Part shown: positions 33,103 through 45,372 of the stretch, in pieces
How the letters are laid out: every line of letters starts with the position of its first letter
Position numbering within the stretch: position 1 is the stretch's first letter
Source: Gammaproteobacteria bacterium
GTDB taxonomy: Bacteria; Pseudomonadota; Gammaproteobacteria; Enterobacterales; Kangiellaceae
Length of the DNA: 46,298 nucleotides
Direction: 5' to 3'
Assembly (NCBI GenBank): GCA_029880585.1
Contig: JAOUOC010000002.1
Location: 1-46,298 of the forward strand
The notes under the pieces: model-generated
Database searches by the model: none
Told to the model about the DNA's origin: nothing
The model's input: only the letters and a program-made list of their open reading frames with translations
Position numbers and translations under genes: made by a program

Positions 33103-34848
33103 CTATTTTCTGTTTTGTTTAATGTAATTATTAATTTGCTGCTCAAGCACATCCAAAGGAATAGAACCATTTTTCAATATCTCATCATGAAACAGTCTAA
33201 GGTCAAAACTATCTCCCAATGCTTTTTCGGCCTTGGCTCTTAATTCCAGAATTTTCAATTCACCCAATTTATATGCCAAAGCCTGACCTGGCCAACTAAT
33301 ATAACGATCCACCTCGGTTCTGATATTATGAGTTGATAAGGCAGAGTTTTCCTCTAACAATTTGATAGCCTGTTCTCTTGTCCAGCCCTTGGCATGAATA
33401 CCTGTATCTATAACCAAACGCCCTGCTCGCCACATTTCATAAGTTAATCGACCAAAGTTACTATAAGGGTCCTGATAAAAACCCACTTCGAGTCCAAGTT
33501 TTTCACTGTATAGTCCCCAGCCTTCGCCAAAGGCTGAAATATAAGAGTAACGTCTGAAATTTGGCACATCTTCCAGTTCCTGATTAAGCGCTCCCTGCAA
33601 ATGATGACCAGGCACAGCTTCATGTAAAGTCAGTGCTTCAAGTGCATAAAGCGGTCTTTTATCCAGAGCATAAGTATTCACCCAGTAAGTACCAGGTCTG
33701 TCACTGTTTAATGGTGCAGACACATATCGTCCAGTGGTGTATTTAGGTGCCATAGCCGCAGGAACAGGCTCAACCGCATAGGGTTGCCTGGGTAATCTGG
33801 TGAAAAGTTTAGGCAATTTACCATCCATTTTTTTTGCTATATAGGCGGCTTCCTTTAACAAATCCTGTTCCGATTTTGCGTAAAATTGCGGCGAATTTCT
33901 TAAAAAATCTAAAAAATCTGCAAAACTACCGTTAAAACCTGATTCTTTAATAACAGCTTCCATTTCCTTGCGAATGCGCGCCACTTCCTTCAATCCAATT
34001 TGATGAATTTCTTCAGCCGTCAGATCAAGGGTTGTATAATTTTTTATTTGTGCCTGATAATAGTTTTTGCCATCAGGAAAATCATACGCGCCCAAGCTTT
34101 GCTTGGTATTTGGAATATATTCTTCTTCAAAAAACGTATACAATTCCTTAAAAGCAGGAAACACCTCATTGGCTATCACTTTTTCTGCCTGCTTTTTTAA
34201 CTGTTTTTGTGATCTGGATGAGATGCTATCAGGCATATTGTTAAATGCCTGTAAAAATGGACTTTTAGAAACACCCTCATCATAGGCTTTTTTTATTACA
34301 TCAGAAAAACCATTCATAACAACCTTTGGCATTGAATAGCCTCTTTTCAAACCTTTACGCATATTCTTTATCTGCTGGTCAAAATAACGAGGAACAGCTT
34401 TCAGGCGTGCAATATAATTTTGGTAATCTTTTTCATTTTGCAGCGGTACCTGTTGATGCAATCGCATGATCTGGGTGTGAAAGCCTGAATCAGACAAAAA
34501 CGGCATTTGATAGCTCTTAAATTCAATTTCAGATAAACGCCATAGCAACTGGGTTTTAAAAATTTGATAATTGATTTTGTCTGTTTCATTCAACTTGTTA
34601 AAATCAATTTCTTCCAGCGCTTTTAAAAATGCTTTTGTTTTCTCTCCTCTTTTATTAAAACTTTCTTCTGATACCTCTTCCAGTAAATGGTTGCTATTAC
34701 GCAAACCTTGTCTGGTCGCCATCATGGGAGATTGTTCCAGCCTGAACTGCCAATCCTGATCGAACAGATCATAAAGTTGTTCTTTAACTGTATTTGCTGA
34801 AGCCAGAGTTGAAAACAGCAACAAGCTTATTACTAATATTTTTTTCAT
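33103..34848 (-). CDS. DUF885 family exported metallopeptidase-like protein
   Basis: A 581-residue protein. Residues 1-18 form a signal peptide (MKKILVISLLLFSTLASA). The rest has the DUF885 pattern, with the zinc-binding HEAVPGHH at 409-416, the upstream YWVNTYALDKRPLYALEALTL split across 389-408, and the downstream SAFGEGWGLYSEKLG. Such proteins are zinc carboxypeptidase-like enzymes, probably of the periplasm; substrates are mostly undefined. An open frame reaches 34884, but AGGT precedes ATG 34848 and the signal peptide starts there. It lies 32 nt after the APC permease on the same strand, so peptide breakdown and amino-acid uptake may be linked. Confidence 0.92.
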   Translation of the reverse strand: MKKILVISLLLFSTLASANTVKEQLYDLFDQDWQFRLEQSPMMATRQGLRNSNHLLEEVSEESFNKRGEKTKAFLKALEEIDFNKLNETDKINYQIFKTQLLWRLSEIEFKSYQMPFLSDSGFHTQIMRLHQQVPLQNEKDYQNYIARLKAVPRYFDQQIKNMRKGLKRGYSMPKVVMNGFSDVIKKAYDEGVSKSPFLQAFNNMPDSISSRSQKQLKKQAEKVIANEVFPAFKELYTFFEEEYIPNTKQSLGAYDFPDGKNYYQAQIKNYTTLDLTAEEIHQIGLKEVARIRKEMEAVIKESGFNGSFADFLDFLRNSPQFYAKSEQDLLKEAAYIAKKMDGKLPKLFTRLPRQPYAVEPVPAAMAPKYTTGRYVSAPLNSDRPGTYWVNTYALDKRPLYALEALTLHEAVPGHHLQGALNQELEDVPNFRRYSYISAFGEGWGLYSEKLGLEVGFYQDPYSNFGRLTYEMWRAGRLVIDTGIHAKGWTREQAIKLLEENSALSTHNIRTEVDRYISWPGQALAYKLGELKILELRAKAEKALGDSFDLRLFHDEILKNGSIPLDVLEQQINNYIKQNRK

Positions 34849-34880: not shown

Positions 34881-36173
34881 TCAATGTCTACTTCGATGCC
34901 ATTGATAACCAAAATACACCGGCAATCCTGCCAATATCAAAATTACTCCCCATACAATCGCTTTACTCCCTATGCCTATAATAGCCCAGACACAATAAAG
35001 AAAGGCCAAAACACTAAACAGACTACTTGATATATTACTGAATAATTTTTTATTTTTTACCAAATACTTCATCTCGGCAAATATAGAAAGTAAATAAGGC
35101 ATAAAAATACCAAGTGTTGAAACCATAATGGCGAAGGTAAATAAAGACACCATACCTTTACTAAAATTAAACCAGATTAAAATAGAAATAATAATACTGG
35201 AAAAAATTAACGCAAATTTAGACACACCATCTTTTTTATTATCCTTAAATACATTAGGTAAAAGATTATCTCTCGCTGCAGTCATTGGTACTTGACCCTG
35301 TAATAAAACCCAGCCATTCAGAGCACCCAGACAACTTAAAACTGCACCAGCAGCTATCAAATATCCAGCCCAGCCACCCCAGATGATTTTGGCAGCATCA
35401 GCAAATGGTGCGCCGGAAGTAATCAATTGCTCATTTGGCACGACACTGACAATAGCCACCTGACATGAAATGTAGATAAAAGCTGTAATGGCAAAACCGA
35501 TTAAAGTTGCTTTTGGAATTGTTCTTTTTGGGTCATCAACATTGTCTGCCGGAATGGTGGCTGATTCGAGACCTAAAAATGCCCAAAGTGTTAAAGCAGC
35601 AGTTGCATTTATAGCTTCACCCATTGACAGATCAGAAGTATTGAGTGGTTTGAAAGCTTGAAGGTCAAAAACAAAAAATGCCGCACCACCTATAAAAAGC
35701 AAAGGTATAATTTTTAGAACAGTGACGATCATTTGAGCAAGCGCCGCTTCTCTAATCCCTTTAACATTAATGTAGGTTACCATCCATAAAAGAGACATTG
35801 ATACGACAACTGCAATCAGGTTGTTTTGTTCAATGACAGGAAAGAAAAAACTGAGATAAGTGACCGCGGCGACAGATATGGCAGCATTACCACACCAGAT
35901 TGAAACCCAATAAGACCAGGCTACGACAAATGCCGGCAAGGCACCAAATTGCTCATAGGCATAACGATAAGGCCCACCCTGTCTTGGATAACGTCTGCTT
36001 AAATTAACAAACACTAATGCCGTCATTAGCGCACCAAGGGTTGTTAACAACCAACCTATAATACTAACGCCACCATAAGGTGCAAGAGAAGCTGGTAATA
36101 AAAAAATCCCTGAACCGACCATATTACCAATAACCAGCGAAGAACATCGCCATACACCCAATGCCTTTGTCAT
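34881..36173 (-). CDS. APC family amino acid permease
   Basis: A 430-residue membrane protein with about twelve hydrophobic segments. The N-terminal helix carries the APC signature IGNMVGSGIFLLPASLAPYG, and the third segment region has PRQGGPYRYAYEQFG. A Glu-containing helix LWAFLGLESATIPADNV is the typical TM6 region. The overall pattern is that of the APA/AdiC-type group, which exchange or import amino acids, often arginine-, lysine- or ornithine-related. The substrate cannot be told from sequence alone. It is the first gene of a two-gene minus-strand unit with the DUF885 gene, and is divergent from the aldehyde dehydrogenase-Rieske-dimethylargininase group. Confidence 0.92.
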   Translation of the reverse strand: MTKALGVWRCSSLVIGNMVGSGIFLLPASLAPYGGVSIIGWLLTTLGALMTALVFVNLSRRYPRQGGPYRYAYEQFGALPAFVVAWSYWVSIWCGNAAISVAAVTYLSFFFPVIEQNNLIAVVVSMSLLWMVTYINVKGIREAALAQMIVTVLKIIPLLFIGGAAFFVFDLQAFKPLNTSDLSMGEAINATAALTLWAFLGLESATIPADNVDDPKRTIPKATLIGFAITAFIYISCQVAIVSVVPNEQLITSGAPFADAAKIIWGGWAGYLIAAGAVLSCLGALNGWVLLQGQVPMTAARDNLLPNVFKDNKKDGVSKFALIFSSIIISILIWFNFSKGMVSLFTFAIMVSTLGIFMPYLLSIFAEMKYLVKNKKLFSNISSSLFSVLAFLYCVWAIIGIGSKAIVWGVILILAGLPVYFGYQWHRSRH

Positions 36174-36265: not shown

Positions 36266-36293
36266 TTGACAAAAATTGTTAACTGTTTTTAAT
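36266..36293 (+). promoter_or_regulatory. Candidate sigma-70 promoter of the aldehyde dehydrogenase gene
   Basis: A perfect TTGACA -35 (36266-36271) and TTTAAT (36288-36293), which matches five of six -10 positions, are separated by 16 nt. A start near 36300 would leave a leader of about 107 nt before ATG 36407. Confidence 0.5.
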
Positions 36294-36406
36294 ATCAGAC
36301 CAAATAAGATAAAAATCTAAAATATTAGTTGACCATCTTTTCAAGAAGCACTAAGTTGTCTATCTCTATTTCTTTTCAAACCAGTCAAAATTATTCAGAT
36401 ATTATT

Positions 36407-37831
36407 ATGTACAATTATCAAAAATTTTATATCAATGGTCAGTGGGTAGCAGCTGATAGCAAACAAACATTATCCGTCATTAATCCTGCAACTGAACAAA
36501 GTTGTGGTGAGATATCTATCGCAAATGAAAAAGATGTTGATTTGGCCGTAACCGCTGCTAAAAACGCATTTGCAAGTTATTCAACAACTACTGTTAATGA
36601 ACGTATTGAATTGTTTGAACAGATCATCACTGTCTTTAAAAAGCGATACAATGATTTGGCTGAAGCCATCTCTACAGAAATGGGCGCGCCAATCAGTCTT
36701 GCGACAAAGGCACAAACCGGTGCGGGATTAGGTCATATAAAAACCGCGCTTGAAGTTCTGCGGAATTATAAATTTGAATACCAACAGGATCATAACCTGA
36801 TTGTTAAAGAACCAATTGGCGTATGTGGTTTGATCACTCCGTGGAATTGGCCATTAAACCAAATTACCTGCAAGGTTTCCCCGGCATTGGCAACTGGATG
36901 TACTATGGTGCTGAAACCATCGGAAATTGCTCCAGTATCTGCTTGTATATTTGCCGAAATACTGGATGAAGCTGGTGTACCCGCTGGCGTATTCAATCTG
37001 GTAAACGGTGATGGTCCTGTTGCAGGTACGGCTTTATCAAAACATCCTGATGTTGATATGATGTCATTTACAGGTTCTACTCGTGCCGGAGCATTGGTTG
37101 CACAAAATGCAGCCCCGACAATCAAGCGGGTTACTCAGGAATTGGGTGGTAAGTCGGCCAACATTTTGCTTGAAGATGTAGATCTCGAACAAGCTGTTAA
37201 GCGCGGAGTGATCTCCATCTTAACCAATTCAGGACAATCCTGTAACGCGCCGACTCGAATGCTGGTACCAGAAAATATGTTATTGGAAGCAGAATCTATT
37301 GCTGAAAAATTTGCTTCTGCATCTGTTATAGGTGACCCAAGTGATGAAAATACAAAAATGGGTCCTGTTGTCAGTGAAGCTCAGTTTAATAAAATTCAGG
37401 ATTTAATTCAGTCAGGTATTGATGAGGGTGCAAAACTGGTTTGCGGTGGAACGGGCAAACCTGAAGGCATTGATAAAGGTTATTACATAAAACCAACCAT
37501 ATTCAGTCAGGTTAATAATCAAATGCGTATTGCCAGAGAAGAGATTTTTGGTCCTGTACTTTGTGTTATTCCATATAAGAATATTGATCAAGCTATCGAA
37601 ATAGCCAATGACACGCCTTACGGCTTGGCTGGCTATATACAGGGCAATGATCCTTCAGTTATAAAATATATTGCGAGCAAGGTAAGAGCAGGTAACATAT
37701 ATATCAATGGGCAAACTGGTGGTTTAAATGCGCCCTTTGGTGGTTATAAGCAATCAGGCAATGGCAGAGAATGTGGTGAATATGGTTTTGAGGATTTTCT
37801 CGAAATAAAATCAATTTCTGGCACATTGTAA
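36407..37831 (+). CDS. Aldehyde dehydrogenase family protein
   Basis: A 474-residue NAD(P)-dependent dehydrogenase. Conserved features are PWNWPLNQ, FTGSTRAGALVAQ, the catalytic glutamate E245 (TQELGGKS) and the catalytic cysteine C279 (NSGQSCNAPTRM). The C-terminal block EEIFGPVLCVIPY and FGGYKQSGNGRECGEYGFED is intact. The specificity is unclear; a betaine-aldehyde-type or amino-aldehyde role is suggested only by the neighbours. An open frame extends upstream to 36329, but the family starts near YNYQKFYINGQWV, so I chose ATG 36407 despite a weak RBS. It is the first gene of a probable unit with the Rieske and dimethylargininase genes. Confidence 0.92.
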   Translation: MYNYQKFYINGQWVAADSKQTLSVINPATEQSCGEISIANEKDVDLAVTAAKNAFASYSTTTVNERIELFEQIITVFKKRYNDLAEAISTEMGAPISLATKAQTGAGLGHIKTALEVLRNYKFEYQQDHNLIVKEPIGVCGLITPWNWPLNQITCKVSPALATGCTMVLKPSEIAPVSACIFAEILDEAGVPAGVFNLVNGDGPVAGTALSKHPDVDMMSFTGSTRAGALVAQNAAPTIKRVTQELGGKSANILLEDVDLEQAVKRGVISILTNSGQSCNAPTRMLVPENMLLEAESIAEKFASASVIGDPSDENTKMGPVVSEAQFNKIQDLIQSGIDEGAKLVCGGTGKPEGIDKGYYIKPTIFSQVNNQMRIAREEIFGPVLCVIPYKNIDQAIEIANDTPYGLAGYIQGNDPSVIKYIASKVRAGNIYINGQTGGLNAPFGGYKQSGNGRECGEYGFEDFLEIKSISGTL

Positions 37832-37932
37832 ACTTGGCTATTATACTCAATGCAGACAAAACTATAGGTTCAATGAAAACAAATCATTTGACTGTAAAAT
37901 ATTAATCGATCATTTCACGTGGAGTTGCCAAT

Positions 37933-39057
37933 ATGAAAGTTTTAGAAAAACACCTTAAACCCTATCTAAAAGAAAGCAAGGCTAAGGAAGCATACGCACT
38001 TGAAGCAGATCTTTACTGTAATGAAAGTTTTTATTCTCTTGAAAATGATGTGGTTTTTCAAAATAACTGGCAATTAGTTGGACATATCGATCAGCTAAGT
38101 AATACTGGCGATCAGCTTGTTTGTGAGATAGCGGAATTACCTATAGTTGTTGTCAGAAATGAAAATAATGAACTCAAGGCATTTCATAATGTTTGTCGAC
38201 ACAGAGCGGGTCCTGTTGCAACAGAAAATGGTAATAGCAAGGTTTTGAGATGCAAATATCATGGTTGGACATATTCTCTGGATGGAGAATTGAATAGTGC
38301 GCCTGAAATGGGCTCTACTCCTAATTTTGATGTTTGCCAATATCATCTACCTCAGGTTGAAATTTCTGAATGGCAAGGATTTATTTTTGTTTCCATTAAT
38401 AAACCAGCAGTTCCTCTTGAAAAAATGCTTTCCGGCATCACTGATAATATTAAGCCTATTAACTTGTCAGAAATGACTTTCAGTCACAGAGAAGAATACA
38501 TTATTGAATGTAACTGGAAAGTGTATATGGATAACTATCTTGAAGGCTATCATATTCCCCATATCCACCCTGAGCTTAATCAATTGATTGACTACAGAAA
38601 CTATGAAACTGAAGTCAAAGCATGGTATAGCTATCAATATAGCAAGTTAACCGAACATAATAATGAGGTAGATAACTTTTATGGCAAGGGTACAGCGCAT
38701 TACTACTGCATTTTTCCAAATCTGATGTTAAATATTTTGCCTGGCAGGTTGCAAACTAACCAAATTATTCCAATTACGAAAAATAAAACCAAAGTTGTTT
38801 TTGATTATTTCTACACTGAATTGGAAAGTGAAGAAACCCAAAAATTAATAGCGCAAGACAAAACATTCAGCCATGTTGTACAAAAAGAAGATATTAATAT
38901 CTGCGAGCAAGTACAAAAAGGACTCAATTCTGGCAGTTATGTACCAGGTCGACTTTGTGTAAAGAGAGAACTGGGTGTTTTACATTATCAAAACTTAATC
39001 AGAAAAAGTTTTCGCGATGCCATAAAAACCAAACATATTAAAGTTTCAAAAACATAA
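37933..39057 (+). CDS. Rieske oxygenase alpha-subunit-like protein, quaternary-ammonium type
   Basis: A 374-residue Rieske non-heme iron oxygenase. The [2Fe-2S] ligands are C88, H90, C107 and H110 (CRHRAGPV and CKYHGWTY). The catalytic iron site lies in NWKVYMDNYLEGYHIPHIHP, with H207 and H212 and a glutamate, E204, at the bridging position where most ring-hydroxylating enzymes have aspartate. Glutamate there is known in carnitine oxygenase CntA and stachydrine demethylase, which act on quaternary ammonium compounds, so such a substrate is likely. The enzyme needs a ferredoxin reductase, which is not in this window. GGAG precedes the ATG by about 7 nt. Similar proteins are annotated as choline monooxygenase-like. 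Confidence 0.9.
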   Translation: MKVLEKHLKPYLKESKAKEAYALEADLYCNESFYSLENDVVFQNNWQLVGHIDQLSNTGDQLVCEIAELPIVVVRNENNELKAFHNVCRHRAGPVATENGNSKVLRCKYHGWTYSLDGELNSAPEMGSTPNFDVCQYHLPQVEISEWQGFIFVSINKPAVPLEKMLSGITDNIKPINLSEMTFSHREEYIIECNWKVYMDNYLEGYHIPHIHPELNQLIDYRNYETEVKAWYSYQYSKLTEHNNEVDNFYGKGTAHYYCIFPNLMLNILPGRLQTNQIIPITKNKTKVVFDYFYTELESEETQKLIAQDKTFSHVVQKEDINICEQVQKGLNSGSYVPGRLCVKRELGVLHYQNLIRKSFRDAIKTKHIKVSKT

Positions 39058-39069
39058 TCAGGGATTAAT

Positions 39070-39831
39070 ATGTTTAGTCGTGCAATTGTCAGACGTCCTG
39101 CCAAATCATTGGTTAACGGACTAACATCTGCCAATTTGGGCAAACCGGATTATGAGAATGCTCTCATTCAACATGAAGGCTATATCAACGCCCTGATACG
39201 CTGCGGGCTTGAGGTCACGATTCTGGATGCTTTAGAAGATTTTCCGGACTCTACCTTTGTCGAAGATGTGGCGCTGCTAACGCCACACTGTGCTATTGTG
39301 ACCAATCCTGGTGCTGCATCCCGTAATGGCGAAAATGCTTTTATCAAACCGGCATTGGAAAAGTTTTATCAACAAATTGAAATCATAAAATCACCTGGTA
39401 CTGTTGAAGCAGGTGACATCATGATGGTCGGCAGTCATTTTTACATCGGACTTTCTGAAAGAACCAACAAATCTGGCGCGGAACAAATGATTGCTTTACT
39501 GAAAAAACATGGGTTAACTGGCTCGATTGTCAATCTTAAAGAATTTCTTCACTTAAAAACCGGTATAAATTATCTTGAAAACAATAATATGTTAGCTAGC
39601 GGAGAATTTTTAACAAAATCAGAGTTCCAACAATTTAATCTGACAGAAATTGATACTGATGAAGCCTATGCCGCGAATAGCCTTTGGATTAATAATAAGG
39701 TTCTTACTCCCAAAGGCTTTCCCAAAACCAGACAAAAAATTGAATCATTAGGTTACGAAATAATAGAAGTTGATGTTTCCGAGTTTGAAAAACTGGATGG
39801 TGGTTTAAGTTGCCTTTCACTTAGATTTTGA
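39070..39831 (+). CDS. Dimethylargininase
   Basis: A 253-residue enzyme of the dimethylarginine dimethylaminohydrolase family, which converts N-omega-methylated arginines to citrulline and methylamines. The catalytic residues E113, H161 and C248 (GGLSCLSLRF) each fall one residue before those of the Pseudomonas aeruginosa enzyme (E114, H162, C249). The family features FSRAIVRRPAKS and FVEDVALL are present. It starts 12 nt after the Rieske stop, so the two are likely cotranscribed. Its end overlaps the convergent TfoX-domain gene by 15 nt. Methylated arginine comes from protein turnover, which fits the peptidase and permease genes divergent from this unit, an inference. Confidence 0.93.
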   Translation: MFSRAIVRRPAKSLVNGLTSANLGKPDYENALIQHEGYINALIRCGLEVTILDALEDFPDSTFVEDVALLTPHCAIVTNPGAASRNGENAFIKPALEKFYQQIEIIKSPGTVEAGDIMMVGSHFYIGLSERTNKSGAEQMIALLKKHGLTGSIVNLKEFLHLKTGINYLENNNMLASGEFLTKSEFQQFNLTEIDTDEAYAANSLWINNKVLTPKGFPKTRQKIESLGYEIIEVDVSEFEKLDGGLSCLSLRF

Positions 39832-41261: not shown

Positions 41262-41729
41262 GTGAGATTAACAACAAAAGGAAGATACGCAGTCACCGCC
41301 ATGCTTGATTTGGCGATTAATAGTAGTGATAGCCCTGTTAATTTGACTGAAATTTCTGAAAGACAAGCGATATCACTCTCCTATCTGGAGCAACTGTTTG
41401 CCAAGCTAAGGCGTAGAAAACTGGTTAGAAGTATTCGCGGGCCTGGAGGTGGATATATGTTGAATGCAACCACTGATGAAATAAGTGTTGCCAACATTAT
41501 CAATGCAGTGAATGAGTCTATGGATATTTCTCGCTGTGAAGGTCGTGCCAACTGTCAGGATGGACAGCAATGTTTGACTCATAATCTCTGGGTAGATTTA
41601 AGTAATCGAATTAATTCATTTTTGGATGACATCACCATTGGTCAGCTTATTCGTCAAAATGAAGAACAGCGTAAACTTAGAGCAAATCAAAACGATAATC
41701 ATAAGATTGAACTGAATACAATTGCCTGA
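41262..41729 (+). CDS. iscR: Fe-S cluster assembly transcription factor IscR
   Basis: A 155-residue Rrf2-family regulator beginning with GTG (GGAG upstream). The N-terminal winged helix-turn-helix ([20 protein letters not shown], then [20 protein letters not shown]) reads DNA. The cluster ligands C92, C98 and C104 and H107 ([16 protein letters not shown]) are at the same numbers as in E. coli IscR. It holds a [2Fe-2S] cluster and represses when cluster supply is adequate. It is the first gene of the suf operon, so it probably controls suf here rather than isc; sufB follows 35 nt after the stop. Confidence 0.95.
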
Positions 41730-41764
41730 AAAAAGTAGTAAACCGATTTATTTTAGAGAAAATC

Positions 41765-43234
41765 ATGCCAGACTTATTGTCAAAAGAGAAATCATCAGAA
41801 GACGAATTAATTGATAGCTATGTTAAAAGTGAATATAGCGCCGGTTTTGTAACCGATATTGAATCAGAAACCATTCCTCCAGGTCTGAATGAAGAGGTTA
41901 TTCGTTTTATTTCCAATAAAAAGAAAGAACCAGAATGGTTGCTTGAATGGCGTCTGCAAGCATATAAGCACTTTATTACCATGCAGGAACCCGAATGGGC
42001 ACATCTGAATTATGAAAAAATCAATCTGGAAGATGTCTCCTTTTATTCTGCGCCCAAAAGCATAGATGATCGACCCAAGAGCCTTGATGAAGTTGATCCT
42101 GAATTAATCGAAACCTACAACAAACTGGGTATTCCCTTGCACGAACAGGAAGTGTTGGCAGGCGTCGCTGTGGATGTGGTTTTTGATTCTGTATCTGTTG
42201 CAACAACATTTAAAGCAAAACTGGCTGAAGCTGGTGTTATCTTCTGCCCTATTTCGGAAGCAGTACACTCTCATCCCGAACTGGTTAAAAAATATATGGG
42301 TAGTGTTGTTCCGCAAAAAGATAATTACTTTGCGGCTTTAAATTCCGCTGTGTTTAGTGATGGTTCTTTTGTTTATATACCTAAAGGCGTTCGATGCCCA
42401 ATGGAACTATCTACCTATTTCAGAATTAACGAAGCCAAAACTGGCCAATTTGAAAGAACTTTGATCATTGCTGAAGATTCAAGCTATGTCAGTTATCTGG
42501 AAGGCTGTACTGCACCCATGCGCGATGAAAATCAGCTTCATGCGGCCGTGGTTGAACTGATTGCACTTGATGATGCAGAAATAAAATATTCTACCGTACA
42601 AAACTGGTACCCGGGTGATGAAAATGGCAAAGGTGGCATATATAACTTTGTTACCAAGCGTGGTGTTTGCCATAAAAATGCAAAGATTTCGTGGACGCAA
42701 GTTGAAACCGGTTCAGCCATCACCTGGAAATACCCCTCCGTCATTTTGCGGGGCGATAACAGTATTGGAGAGTTTTACTCAGTCGCATTAACCAGAAACT
42801 ACCAACAGGCTGATACTGGTACCAAGATGATTCATTTGGGCAAAAACACCAAATCAACAATTATTTCAAAGGGTATTTCAGCGGGTAAAAGCCAAAATGC
42901 TTATCGTGGTCTTGTGAGAATGAGCCCAAGAGCAGAAGGTGCCAGAAATTACACACAATGTGATTCCTTGTTGATTGGCGACCAATGTGGGGCACACACT
43001 TTTCCCTATATCGAAAGCAAAAACCCGAGCGCTATAGTTGAGCATGAAGCAACCACATCAAAAGTTAGCGATGATCAGCTTTTTTTGTGCCAACAGCGTG
43101 GTATTGATGCTGAAAAGGCTGTTTCCATGATAGTTAACGGCTTCTGTAAGGAAGTTTTTAAAATGCTGCCGATGGAGTTTGCAGTCGAAGCTGGAAAGTT
43201 GCTGGAAGTCAGTCTCGAAGGTTCCGTTGGTTAG
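41765..43234 (+). CDS. sufB: Fe-S cluster assembly protein SufB
   Basis: A 489-residue scaffold subunit, near the 495 of E. coli SufB. Conserved parts include [58 protein letters not shown] and the C-terminal [20 protein letters not shown] with the cysteines and glutamate of the cluster-building site. SufB with SufC and SufD forms the SufBC2D complex, which assembles clusters using sulfur from SufS. AGAGAA precedes the start. Second gene of the iscR-sufBCDS unit; the gap to sufC is 69 nt. Confidence 0.97.
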
Positions 43235-43303
43235 AGTTCTGTTTATCGCGTTTATCGCATTTATTTTAAGATATTGAATAAGATTTAAAACCAGAGAAAT
43301 TTA

Positions 43304-44059
43304 ATGTTAACAATTGATAATTTACATGCCACAGTTGATGGCAAAAACATTCTGAAAGGCCTTTCACTGGAAGTGAAACCCGGTGAAGTTCACGCTATTA
43401 TGGGGCCAAATGGTTCAGGCAAAAGCACGCTGGGCTATGCCTTGTCTGGCCGTGAAGGATATGAAGTGACTGATGGAAAGATAAATTTCAAAGGTGAAGA
43501 TTTACTGGAATTTGAAACCGAAGAGCGAGCGCAAAAAGGTCTGTTTTTGGCTTTCCAATACCCTGTAGAAATTCCCGGTGTCAGTAACATGGAATTTTTG
43601 AAAACCAGTGTGGATGCGGTCAGAAGTTATCAGAATAAAGAGCCACTAGATGCAGTGACTTTCATGAAGCTGGCCAGAGAAAAAAGTAAAGAAGTAAATC
43701 TGGATCAAAACTTCCTTAAGCGTGGTGTTAACGAAGGCTTTTCCGGTGGTGAGAAAAAGCGTAATGAAATTCTGCAGATGATGTTGCTGGAACCATCACT
43801 TTGTATTCTTGATGAAACTGATTCAGGTCTTGATATTGATGCTCTGCAAACGGTAGCAGACGGTGTCAATGCCTGCAGGGATCCTAATCGCTCATTTATT
43901 GTAGTGACCCATTATCAACGCTTGCTGGATTACATTGTACCTGATTATGTTCACGTGTTATCTGACGGTAAAATTATTAAAACCGGTGGTAAAGAGTTAG
44001 CACTCGAGCTGGAAGAGAAAGGCTATAGCTGGATTAATACCCTGCCAGAGGAAGCATAA
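43304..44059 (+). CDS. sufC: Fe-S cluster assembly ATPase SufC
   Basis: A 251-residue ABC-type ATPase without membrane part. Walker A is GPNGSGKST (34-42), the signature is FSGGEKKRNEIL, Walker B is LCILDETDSGLD, and the switch histidine is VVTHYQR. SufC powers the conformational change of SufBC2D. The long E-rich end (GGKELALELEEKGYSWI) is typical. AGAGAAAT precedes the ATG. It is followed by sufD after 5 nt. Confidence 0.97.
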   Translation: MLTIDNLHATVDGKNILKGLSLEVKPGEVHAIMGPNGSGKSTLGYALSGREGYEVTDGKINFKGEDLLEFETEERAQKGLFLAFQYPVEIPGVSNMEFLKTSVDAVRSYQNKEPLDAVTFMKLAREKSKEVNLDQNFLKRGVNEGFSGGEKKRNEILQMMLLEPSLCILDETDSGLDIDALQTVADGVNACRDPNRSFIVVTHYQRLLDYIVPDYVHVLSDGKIIKTGGKELALELEEKGYSWINTLPEEA

Positions 44060-44064
44060 TTATA

Positions 44065-45372
44065 ATGACTGTAGCAATTGATTTTTCACAAAGAGACAAA
44101 CTGAAGCTGGATGATTTTCTGCTAAAGTCATCCGCCGGTTGGTTGGCAGGCAATCAAAAACGTGCTTTCGATTTTTTTTGCACCCTTCCCTTACCACACC
44201 GAAAAAATGAGCACTGGAAATATAATCAGGTTGATTTTCTTAATTCCGGCGATTTTATCCTGTGTCATCAGGCTGGCCAGGCTGAACATAAAAGCCAGTC
44301 TATTAATTTTGAAAATAGCATAAAACTGGATTTTGTTAATGGCATCTTGGTTAACCAATTTAATGATGATGAGCCTGCTTTGCAATTAACAAGAATTGAT
44401 AAATTAAATAGTGAACAACAAGCATTACTCCAGCAGCAGCTAGCACAGCAGGATAAAAACATTTTTGCTCATTTAAACCAACTTATCGCCAATAATGCCT
44501 ATCTGTTGGAAGTTAAAGCTAACACGATCATCGACAAGCCTGTCTATATTCGCCATATCAGCGACCCAGGCCTTGAGAATAGTGAAGCGAATCAATTAGC
44601 AGTGAATGCCCTTTATGTTAGTGTCAGCGCTAATAGCCAGTTAACCCTGATAGAGCAGTTTAATAGCAATACGAACGATTCTGAAAATACTCTATTAAAT
44701 CTTCAGCAGAGCTTTATTCAACTGGCGCAAAATGCTCATTGCAAGCATTACCGGCTGAATCTTGAAGACGCAAACTCTCATCAGGTCAGTGAAGTCAATA
44801 TCAATCAAATGAAGGATTCACATTACAAAAGCTTTTATCTGGGATTGGGTAGTAAATTGAATCGAACTGATATTAATCTGGCTTATCAACAAGAACATGC
44901 TTCAGCCGATCTCTCTGGTGTCTATCTGCCATCGGGAAATGAGACAATTGACTATCACACCAATATTCAACACAAAAATGGCCATTGTCAGACTAATGAA
45001 ATATTTAGAGGTATTATTGCTGATCAAGCCAAGGCTACTTTTAATGGTAAAATTCATATTTTCCCGCAAGCACAGAAATCAGATGCCTATTTAAATAACA
45101 AGAATTTGTTGCTAACCAATCAGGCAGAAATCAATACCAAACCGGAACTGGAAATTTATGCTGATGATGTCTCCTGTGCTCATGGTGCGACAGTAGCGCA
45201 GCTGGATAAAAAGTCATTGTATTATCTGCAAAGCAGAGGTATTGGATTAAAAAAGGCCAAAACCATGTTGAGTCTCGGTTTTATAAATGAGCTGATTACC
45301 CGCATTGACAATGAAGTTATCAGAGAATTTTTGTTATCGCTGGTTGATAAACGTATGAGTCATATTGACTAA
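44065..45372 (+). CDS. sufD: Fe-S cluster assembly protein SufD
   Basis: A 435-residue SufD, near the 423 of E. coli. The N-terminal half is more variable and helical (GNQKRAFDFFCTLPLPHRKN, EHWKYNQVDFL). The C-terminal half carries the SufBD core, with HASADLSGVYLP, NEIFRGIIADQAKATFNGKI, IFPQAQKSDAYLNNKNLLL and CAHGATVAQLD followed by YYLQSRGIGLKKAK. It pairs with SufB in SufBC2D and supports iron acquisition in the complex. Its start lies 5 nt after the sufC stop, with GAGGAAG upstream inside the sufC end. sufS follows 28 nt later. Confidence 0.95.
   Translation: MTVAIDFSQRDKLKLDDFLLKSSAGWLAGNQKRAFDFFCTLPLPHRKNEHWKYNQVDFLNSGDFILCHQAGQAEHKSQSINFENSIKLDFVNGILVNQFNDDEPALQLTRIDKLNSEQQALLQQQLAQQDKNIFAHLNQLIANNAYLLEVKANTIIDKPVYIRHISDPGLENSEANQLAVNALYVSVSANSQLTLIEQFNSNTNDSENTLLNLQQSFIQLAQNAHCKHYRLNLEDANSHQVSEVNINQMKDSHYKSFYLGLGSKLNRTDINLAYQQEHASADLSGVYLPSGNETIDYHTNIQHKNGHCQTNEIFRGIIADQAKATFNGKIHIFPQAQKSDAYLNNKNLLLTNQAEINTKPELEIYADDVSCAHGATVAQLDKKSLYYLQSRGIGLKKAKTMLSLGFINELITRIDNEVIREFLLSLVDKRMSHID

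Follow-up and report, generated by a model that had tools for sequence, protein, structure and literature searches.

A clade of Rieske oxygenases found beside guanidine hydrolases and a cationic amino-acid permease: a candidate locus for the breakdown of N-methylated basic amino acids

Which compounds are handled by a locus that joins an aldehyde dehydrogenase (ALDH), a Rieske oxygenase and a dimethylargininase (DDAH)? The question was raised by a stretch of 46,298 nucleotides (hereafter the window; contig JAOUOC010000002.1 of assembly GCA_029880585.1) from a Kangiellaceae bacterium whose draft genome spans 2.93 Mb and is 92 % complete. An initial annotation of the window had described these genes as closely spaced on one strand and their catalytic residues as intact. 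Both statements are exact: the intergenic gaps are 101 bp (ALDH-Rieske) and 12 bp (Rieske-DDAH), and we found E245 and C279 in the ALDH (numbered from ATG 36407), where N147 is also present, E204, H207 and H212 in the Rieske protein, and E113, H161 and C248 in the DDAH. The three-gene unit is real, but it had been drawn too small, a divergent AdiC-like permease gene having been overlooked. The breakdown of methylated amino compounds proposed there agrees with the partners, which indicate cationic amino acids that are N-methylated; the Rieske substrate is presumably among these. Our reading, to which we give a probability of about 0.4, is that the locus serves the uptake and breakdown of N-methylated basic amino acids, with the Rieske oxygenase acting on trimethyllysine and the DDAH on methylarginines. 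The computation itself establishes which genes are present, that their catalytic residues are intact, to which clade the Rieske protein belongs, that neighbourhoods are conserved, and that residues have changed in a way that should widen the pocket relative to CntA.

The Rieske protein is the sole PF00848 match in the draft genome. In a maximum-likelihood tree of 51 sequences (29 rows of its family, from a subset of the loci, and 22 others) the family forms a single clade (support 100/99). Its nearest outside relative is a Gemmatirosa protein (98/98), followed by E. coli CntA and allied proteins (85/72), while Stc2, BphA1 and BenA lie on branches apart. CntA is also the best solved match, by sequence and by fold: the top 12 Foldseek matches of the AlphaFold model (mean pLDDT 88.3, but below 50 at residues 208-211 beside the Fe site) are CntA chains, 24 % identical, and Stc2 comes next. 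An aromatic-ring oxygenase, named with the initial annotation as the outcome that would speak against it, is ruled out by the separate branching of BphA1 and BenA and by the fold ranking, which places CntA and Stc2 above the dioxygenases. The family is a clade of its own, whose placement beside the group Va quaternary-ammonium oxygenases has modest support. In a sample of the class, members were found at E<=1e-90 in 4 of 369 genomes, the window's own included. Relatives with names that the Rieske protein retrieved (Aliikangiella, Pleionea and a MAG of the Kangiellaceae) suggest that the bacterium belongs in or near that family. An outlying relative, 39 % identical, is carried by a Gemmatirosa plasmid (L121:5980-7059); no partner gene lies less than 6 kb away from it.

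The Fe ligands and the bridging Glu are kept in all 29 family rows. The initial annotation had used this glutamate as a pointer to the substrate, which the residue alone does not give. Position 203 of CntA, reported to bind the quaternary ammonium of the substrate, is described as aromatic in group Va and as Asn in the group Vb demethylases (PMC7948474). Here it is Tyr in 21 rows and Phe in 8, as in group Va; Stc2 (group Vb) shares the fold and the Fe site but has Asn. Equivalents of CntA Asn270 and Tyr225 are also kept. Four other pocket residues are replaced: Phe258 by Ala and Phe319 by Val or Ile (both in 29/29), Tyr315 by Phe, and Tyr295, which is weighed below. On the pocket and the model scores, a carnitine monooxygenase and a glycine betaine monooxygenase were both rejected. 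The GbcA model NF058607 is the best NCBIfam model for this protein, yet it gives only 170.3 bits where its cut-off asks for 670. Ala at Phe258 and Val/Ile at Phe319 should leave room for a longer substrate than that of CntA. Five of the seven CntA contact positions are invariant across DDAH-linked and flavoprotein-linked lineages, and the remaining two vary only between Tyr and Phe and between Val and Ile; this near-invariance argues for one substrate. The pocket as a whole suggests that the family acts on a single cationic compound of greater length than carnitine.

The conservation of the locus was analyzed in 61 genomes (the window's own and 60 relatives from the Kangiellaceae and the order). 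A Rieske ortholog (at least 400 bits; 49-64 % identical outside the window) is present in 13 of them, including five of the seven genomes of the window's Aliikangiella-related genus. These five all keep permease, ALDH, Rieske and DDAH genes in identical order, and the ALDH is 68-71 % identical in the four congeners. The order is more than chance, because it is kept while the flanks are only partly common (one upstream family in three genomes, one downstream family in two, otherwise different). The two other congeners, G002 and G006, have neither Rieske nor DDAH matches. The question attached to the initial annotation, whether the genes stay together in relatives, is thus answered positively for the genus, but the trio is not universal. 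What adjoins the Rieske gene in all 13 ortholog-bearing genomes is a guanidine hydrolase: in seven a DDAH of the Pseudomonas aeruginosa type, and in six (the Pleionea genus and G049) a protein resembling arginine deiminase (ADI).

Counting also more distant loci, three unlike types of guanidine hydrolase occur near the Rieske gene. The first is that of the window, which aligns end to end with the DDAH structures 3rhy and 1h70 (best E 1.4e-101), as with P. aeruginosa DDAH, and has the catalytic Glu, His and Cys; we call it DDAH-like since its NF045658 score (392.5 bits) is below the curated cut-off of 450. The second, a further dimethylargininase best matched by NF045660 (222 bits against a cut-off of 340), was found in two metagenome-assembled genomes (MAGs), L049 (Natronospirales) and L050 (Gammaproteobacteria), where it follows the Rieske gene at a distance of about 0.7 kb that also holds an ORF on the opposite strand; it is 36-37 % identical to the window's DDAH. 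The third, the ADI-like type, fits neither the arginine deiminase nor the DDAH models (in L033, 96 bits of 414 and 65 of 340) and keeps the Asp, Glu, His and Cys. It reads HLM where arginine deiminase has HLD and DDAH has HLK, a position which we take to bear on the hydrolase type. At a threshold of at least 300 bits it occurs in 6 of the 61 genomes. Its structure model (mean pLDDT 33.9) was not used.

The constant presence of a guanidine hydrolase would fit a reading in which the target of the Rieske oxygenase is arginine with a methylated guanidino group: the enzyme would remove methyls (for example from symmetric dimethylarginine, which DDAH is not known to hydrolyse), and the guanidine hydrolase would finish the work; in Xanthomonadales the product would be plain arginine. 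The pairing in 13/13 genomes and the three unlike hydrolases fit it. The ADI-like type, at the threshold just given, is found only with the Rieske gene (6/6), and it departs from the deiminase motif as DDAH presumably does. The permease adds to the case. It aligns with AdiC over its full length (2.7e-73) and keeps Trp, Asn, Ser-Gly and Glu at the positions which we take to be the arginine contacts of AdiC. Its scores are below the cut-offs (TIGR00905, 334.5 bits against 409; the AdiC cut-off was also missed) and, unlike AdiC, it is paired with catabolic enzymes. Of six loci that hold a DDAH but no Rieske ortholog, four have a permease of the same superfamily beside the DDAH, with identities to that of the window of 62.7, 35, 35 and 28.5 %; P. 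aeruginosa DDAH presumably also has a permease neighbour and no Rieske gene. Against a methylarginine substrate stand the known group V Rieske enzymes, which act on quaternary ammonium (PMC7948474), an amine-dehydrogenase partner and an ALDH left without a clear role, and the distant genomes described below, most of them without a guanidine hydrolase match. We regard this reading as doubtful, though not without some chance. That the clade is a new class attacking methylguanidinium, symmetric dimethylarginine first, with three unlike guanidine hydrolases at its side, is improbable; we know of no Rieske enzyme attacking methylguanidinium.

DDAH genes without a Rieske ortholog were found in G012, G021, G024, G039 and G040 (at least 330 bits), and a distant one (179 bits) in G060. 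G048, which was left out of the count of six, carries a 30-residue piece of the Rieske protein (L162:8932-9021, 73 % identical) before an intact DDAH gene, in a stretch that contains 41 N. Loss of the Rieske gene was considered for this genome and withdrawn, the 41 N making an assembly gap likelier.

Wider neighbourhoods were compared in 90 loci (97 minus seven duplicates, extra loci from further genomes included; one contig scan kept 80 of 321 related stretches). L066 and L093 come from one MAG, L121 lies outside the Rieske clade, and in 15 loci the sequence on one side of the Rieske match is shorter than 3 kb, so that counts of absence are upper bounds. The partners are distributed as follows: at 6 kb or less from the Rieske gene the permease is present in 62 loci, a flavoprotein in 37, a Cc2672-like peptidase in 23, DDAH in 10 (12 initially, of which two, L032 and L038, are ADI-like genes), the ADI-like protein in six and ALDH in five. 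These figures dispose of a universal trio. The permease is the most constant partner, and the guanidine hydrolase a recurrent but apparently dispensable one. We also searched 35 genomes with distant Rieske loci (L049, L050, 28 Xanthomonadales and 5 Oxalobacteraceae, by record names) for the ADI/DDAH superfamily. No match at E<=0.001 was found in 24 of them (19/28 Xanthomonadales and 5/5 Oxalobacteraceae), some possibly having been missed; several of the matches reach only 20-36 bits, and among the four of 11 that were read (L145, L146, L152, L153), those of L152 and L153 score as dimethylargininases, below cut-off. The apparent absence of the superfamily from these 24 genomes makes it doubtful that the three enzymes act in turn along a single linear route.

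Flavoprotein and peptidase occur in loci named Xanthomonadales (Lysobacterales) or Proteobacteria. In Xanthomonadales the Rieske, peptidase, permease and flavoprotein genes often overlap by 4 bp. The best solved relative of the peptidase is the L-arginine carboxypeptidase Cc2672, which also cleaves C-terminal lysine. The flavoprotein belongs to the histamine dehydrogenase/trimethylamine dehydrogenase (TMADH) family (E 4.8e-241 to 3k30) and reached no NCBIfam equivalog among its best 25. Compared with TMADH it keeps Trp264, but has Glu at Tyr60 and a one-residue gap at Trp355; the Asp beside this gap aligns with Asp358 of histamine dehydrogenase, whose substrate-site residues were taken from PMC10180351. 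The Glu and the Asp make a second charged group on the flavoprotein's substrate likely. Together, flavoprotein, peptidase and permease indicate basic amino acids.

The flavoprotein also opens the way to N-demethylation: the Rieske oxygenase would convert a quaternary basic amino acid to a tertiary amine and formaldehyde, like GbcA and Stc2, and the Xanthomonadales flavoprotein would strip the remaining methyls. The substrate could be trimethyllysine or one of N-alpha-trimethyl type such as arginine betaine, which would also fit the guanidine hydrolases. The flavoprotein gene, near the Rieske gene in the 37 loci counted above, follows it at 36-59 bp in L110, L113 and L115, and the glycine betaine and proline betaine pathways resemble such a pairing, as does the Rieske-then-flavoprotein logic of Stc2. 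This reading is unlikely: the aromatic residue at position 203 marks group Va and not the Asn-bearing group Vb demethylases, and among the matches listed for the 61 genomes there is no close relative of the flavoprotein (the best-scoring ones are about 25-32 % identical). It is also conceivable, if quite unlikely, that the Rieske substrate is an unrelated cation and that nothing more than a regulon or a chromosomal neighbourhood unites the genes. ALDH, DDAH and permease are each absent from many loci (the truncated ones included), five genomes have a DDAH of at least 330 bits without a Rieske ortholog, and L046 has Rieske and permease genes with no DDAH in the 8 kb covered on that side. The pairing with three guanidine hydrolase types and a permease, maintained despite changing flanks, argues the other way.

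We favor trimethyllysine as the Rieske substrate because quaternary ammonium is what the group V enzymes known so far attack, because the products of trimethyllysine would suit partners such as an amine dehydrogenase and an ALDH, and because most Xanthomonadales and all Oxalobacteraceae genomes tested show no DDAH. The route that follows is our inference, in its substrates as in its C-N cleavage and in the part given to the ALDH. N-methylated basic amino acids freed from algal, plant or animal material would be the supply, and the AdiC-like permease would import methylated lysine and arginine. The DDAH would turn mono- and asymmetric dimethylarginine into citrulline and methylamine or dimethylamine. 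The Rieske oxygenase, drawing electrons from an unlinked donor, would hold the quaternary-ammonium amino acid at its Tyr202 by a cation-pi contact; with N-epsilon-trimethyllysine, hydroxylation at the carbon next to N would yield trimethylamine and 2-aminoadipate semialdehyde, which the ALDH would oxidize to 2-aminoadipate. The C-N cleavage finds some support in a row of genes on a Priestia plasmid (reductase, ferredoxin, Rieske, ALDH, tartrate dehydrogenase), which in our reading resembles carnitine breakdown.

Several observations weigh against trimethyllysine and this route. The strongest is the pairing with three guanidine hydrolase types, which trimethyllysine alone leaves unexplained and a methylarginine substrate explains more directly. 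In the pocket, Tyr295, which meets the polar end of the substrate in CntA, is Phe in 29/29 rows. The Cys pair beside the Fe in CntA and Stc2 is absent from all 29, with Gly205 and Leu, Val or Ile at 208 instead; this CxxC pair is described for some group V members only (PMC10952381). The grouping with CntA rests on modest support (85/72), for which the tree program warned of long branches and of an unusual composition of the window's row. ALDH is limited to one genus. The flavoprotein is probably not a trimethylamine dehydrogenase, a candidate that we rejected for the misfit at Tyr60 and Trp355, and the Arg/Lys preference of the peptidase is not certain, given that it scores 516.9 bits, over the cut-off of 500, as an NCBIfam Xaa-Pro dipeptidase.

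The electron supply also counts on this side. The initial annotation had seen no reductase near the genes, and a tblastn search of the window (E<=1e-3) found none either. Its eight queries were reductases or ferredoxins, four of them encoded by this genome and four, one partial and none of them CntB itself, taken from other Rieske systems. The same queries showed no linked reductase in 89 of the 90 loci, a further difference from CntA besides the permease, which is APC-type and not betaine-type. In the one remaining locus, an 815-aa ORF (L045:1284-3731) that lies about 3.6 kb away from the Rieske gene gives a distant match of flavin-reductase type. The genome also encodes a GbcB-like reductase (L167; 332.8 bits against a cut-off of 500), which is present in the Rieske-less congeners G002 and G006 and missing in the five Rieske-bearing Pleionea-type genomes and in G049. 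As a co-inherited partner it was rejected, since its distribution does not track the Rieske gene.

What appears to be new is an unassigned clade of Rieske oxygenases, of the quaternary-ammonium type, in company with a new combination of partners. Among the matches listed in a literature search, with most subscription papers outside it, no title or abstract start describes this cluster, nor an aerobic route that in bacteria is dedicated to trimethyllysine or to symmetric dimethylarginine. The digestion of methylated proteins, wherever it takes place, releases lysine and arginine in methylated form. Seaweeds and vegetables are reported to contain free trimethyllysine, and methylarginines in vegetables are cited from an earlier report by the same authors (PMC3890275). 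Through the locus the window's bacterium would probably feed on methylated lysine and arginine. A widespread Rieske clade accompanied by DDAH, a cationic amino-acid permease and amine-oxidizing enzymes is a concrete candidate for assays: trimethyllysine as substrate would mean an extra source of trimethylamine in soils and seas, methylarginine a new Rieske chemistry.

Coordinates of the features discussed are collected in Table 1.

Table 1. Features of the window, and the ADI-like hydrolase of related loci
Feature	Position	Strand	Remarks
Aldehyde dehydrogenase (ALDH), 474 aa	36407..37831	+	ATG start; Pfam Aldedh
Rieske oxygenase, 374 aa	37933..39057	+	Pfam Rieske and Ring_hydroxyl_A
Dimethylargininase (DDAH)-like guanidine hydrolase, 253 aa	39070..39831	+	Pfam ADI/DDAH_eukar
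AdiC-like cationic amino-acid permease (APC)	34881..36173	-	AA_permease_2; divergent from ALDH
DUF885 (putative peptidase) gene	33103..34848	-	Pfam; directly behind permease
Sigma-70-like match TTGACA-18-TAATAT	36266..36295	+	5' of ALDH; at chance level
ADI-like hydrolase, ~292 aa	L033:8584-9462, L048:7041-7925, L038:8275-9159		Pleionea and G049

The ALDH reading frame at its full length runs from TTG 36329 (36329-37831) and scores 522.8 bits with Pfam Aldedh; none of the best 25 of 41 NCBIfam families was above cut-off. ATG 36407, in register with a congener's ALDH, is the favored start and TTG 36329 an unlikely one. The TTGACA-type promoter noted ahead of the genes is a real match, but it is no evidence, because promoter-like sites number 20 against 17.4 (sd 4.0) in shuffles. 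The DUF885 gene is possibly co-transcribed with the permease gene; from ATG 34848 its product would carry an apparent signal peptide (start and signal judged by eye from the translation). It is not a conserved partner: 2 of 90 loci have it at 6 kb or less from the Rieske gene. In G049 the distance between the Rieske gene and a homolog is about 4.5 kb. Further downstream, positions 41262-45372 hold an Rrf2-type regulator and genes that read, by eye from their translations, as an ordinary Suf iron-sulfur assembly operon.

Plasmids carry other arrangements. In L124 (Mesorhizobium pM0123a) and L126 (Pseudomonas pMPC6-328K), from two proteobacterial classes, a Rieske gene is followed in identical order by genes for a short-chain dehydrogenase/reductase (SDR), a BKACE protein, an aminobutyraldehyde dehydrogenase and a second SDR, a module resembling a mobile betaine or carnitine unit. 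The Priestia megaterium row mentioned above lies on pMLY91_1 (L125), and a carnitine-to-malate route in Bacillota is possible for it.

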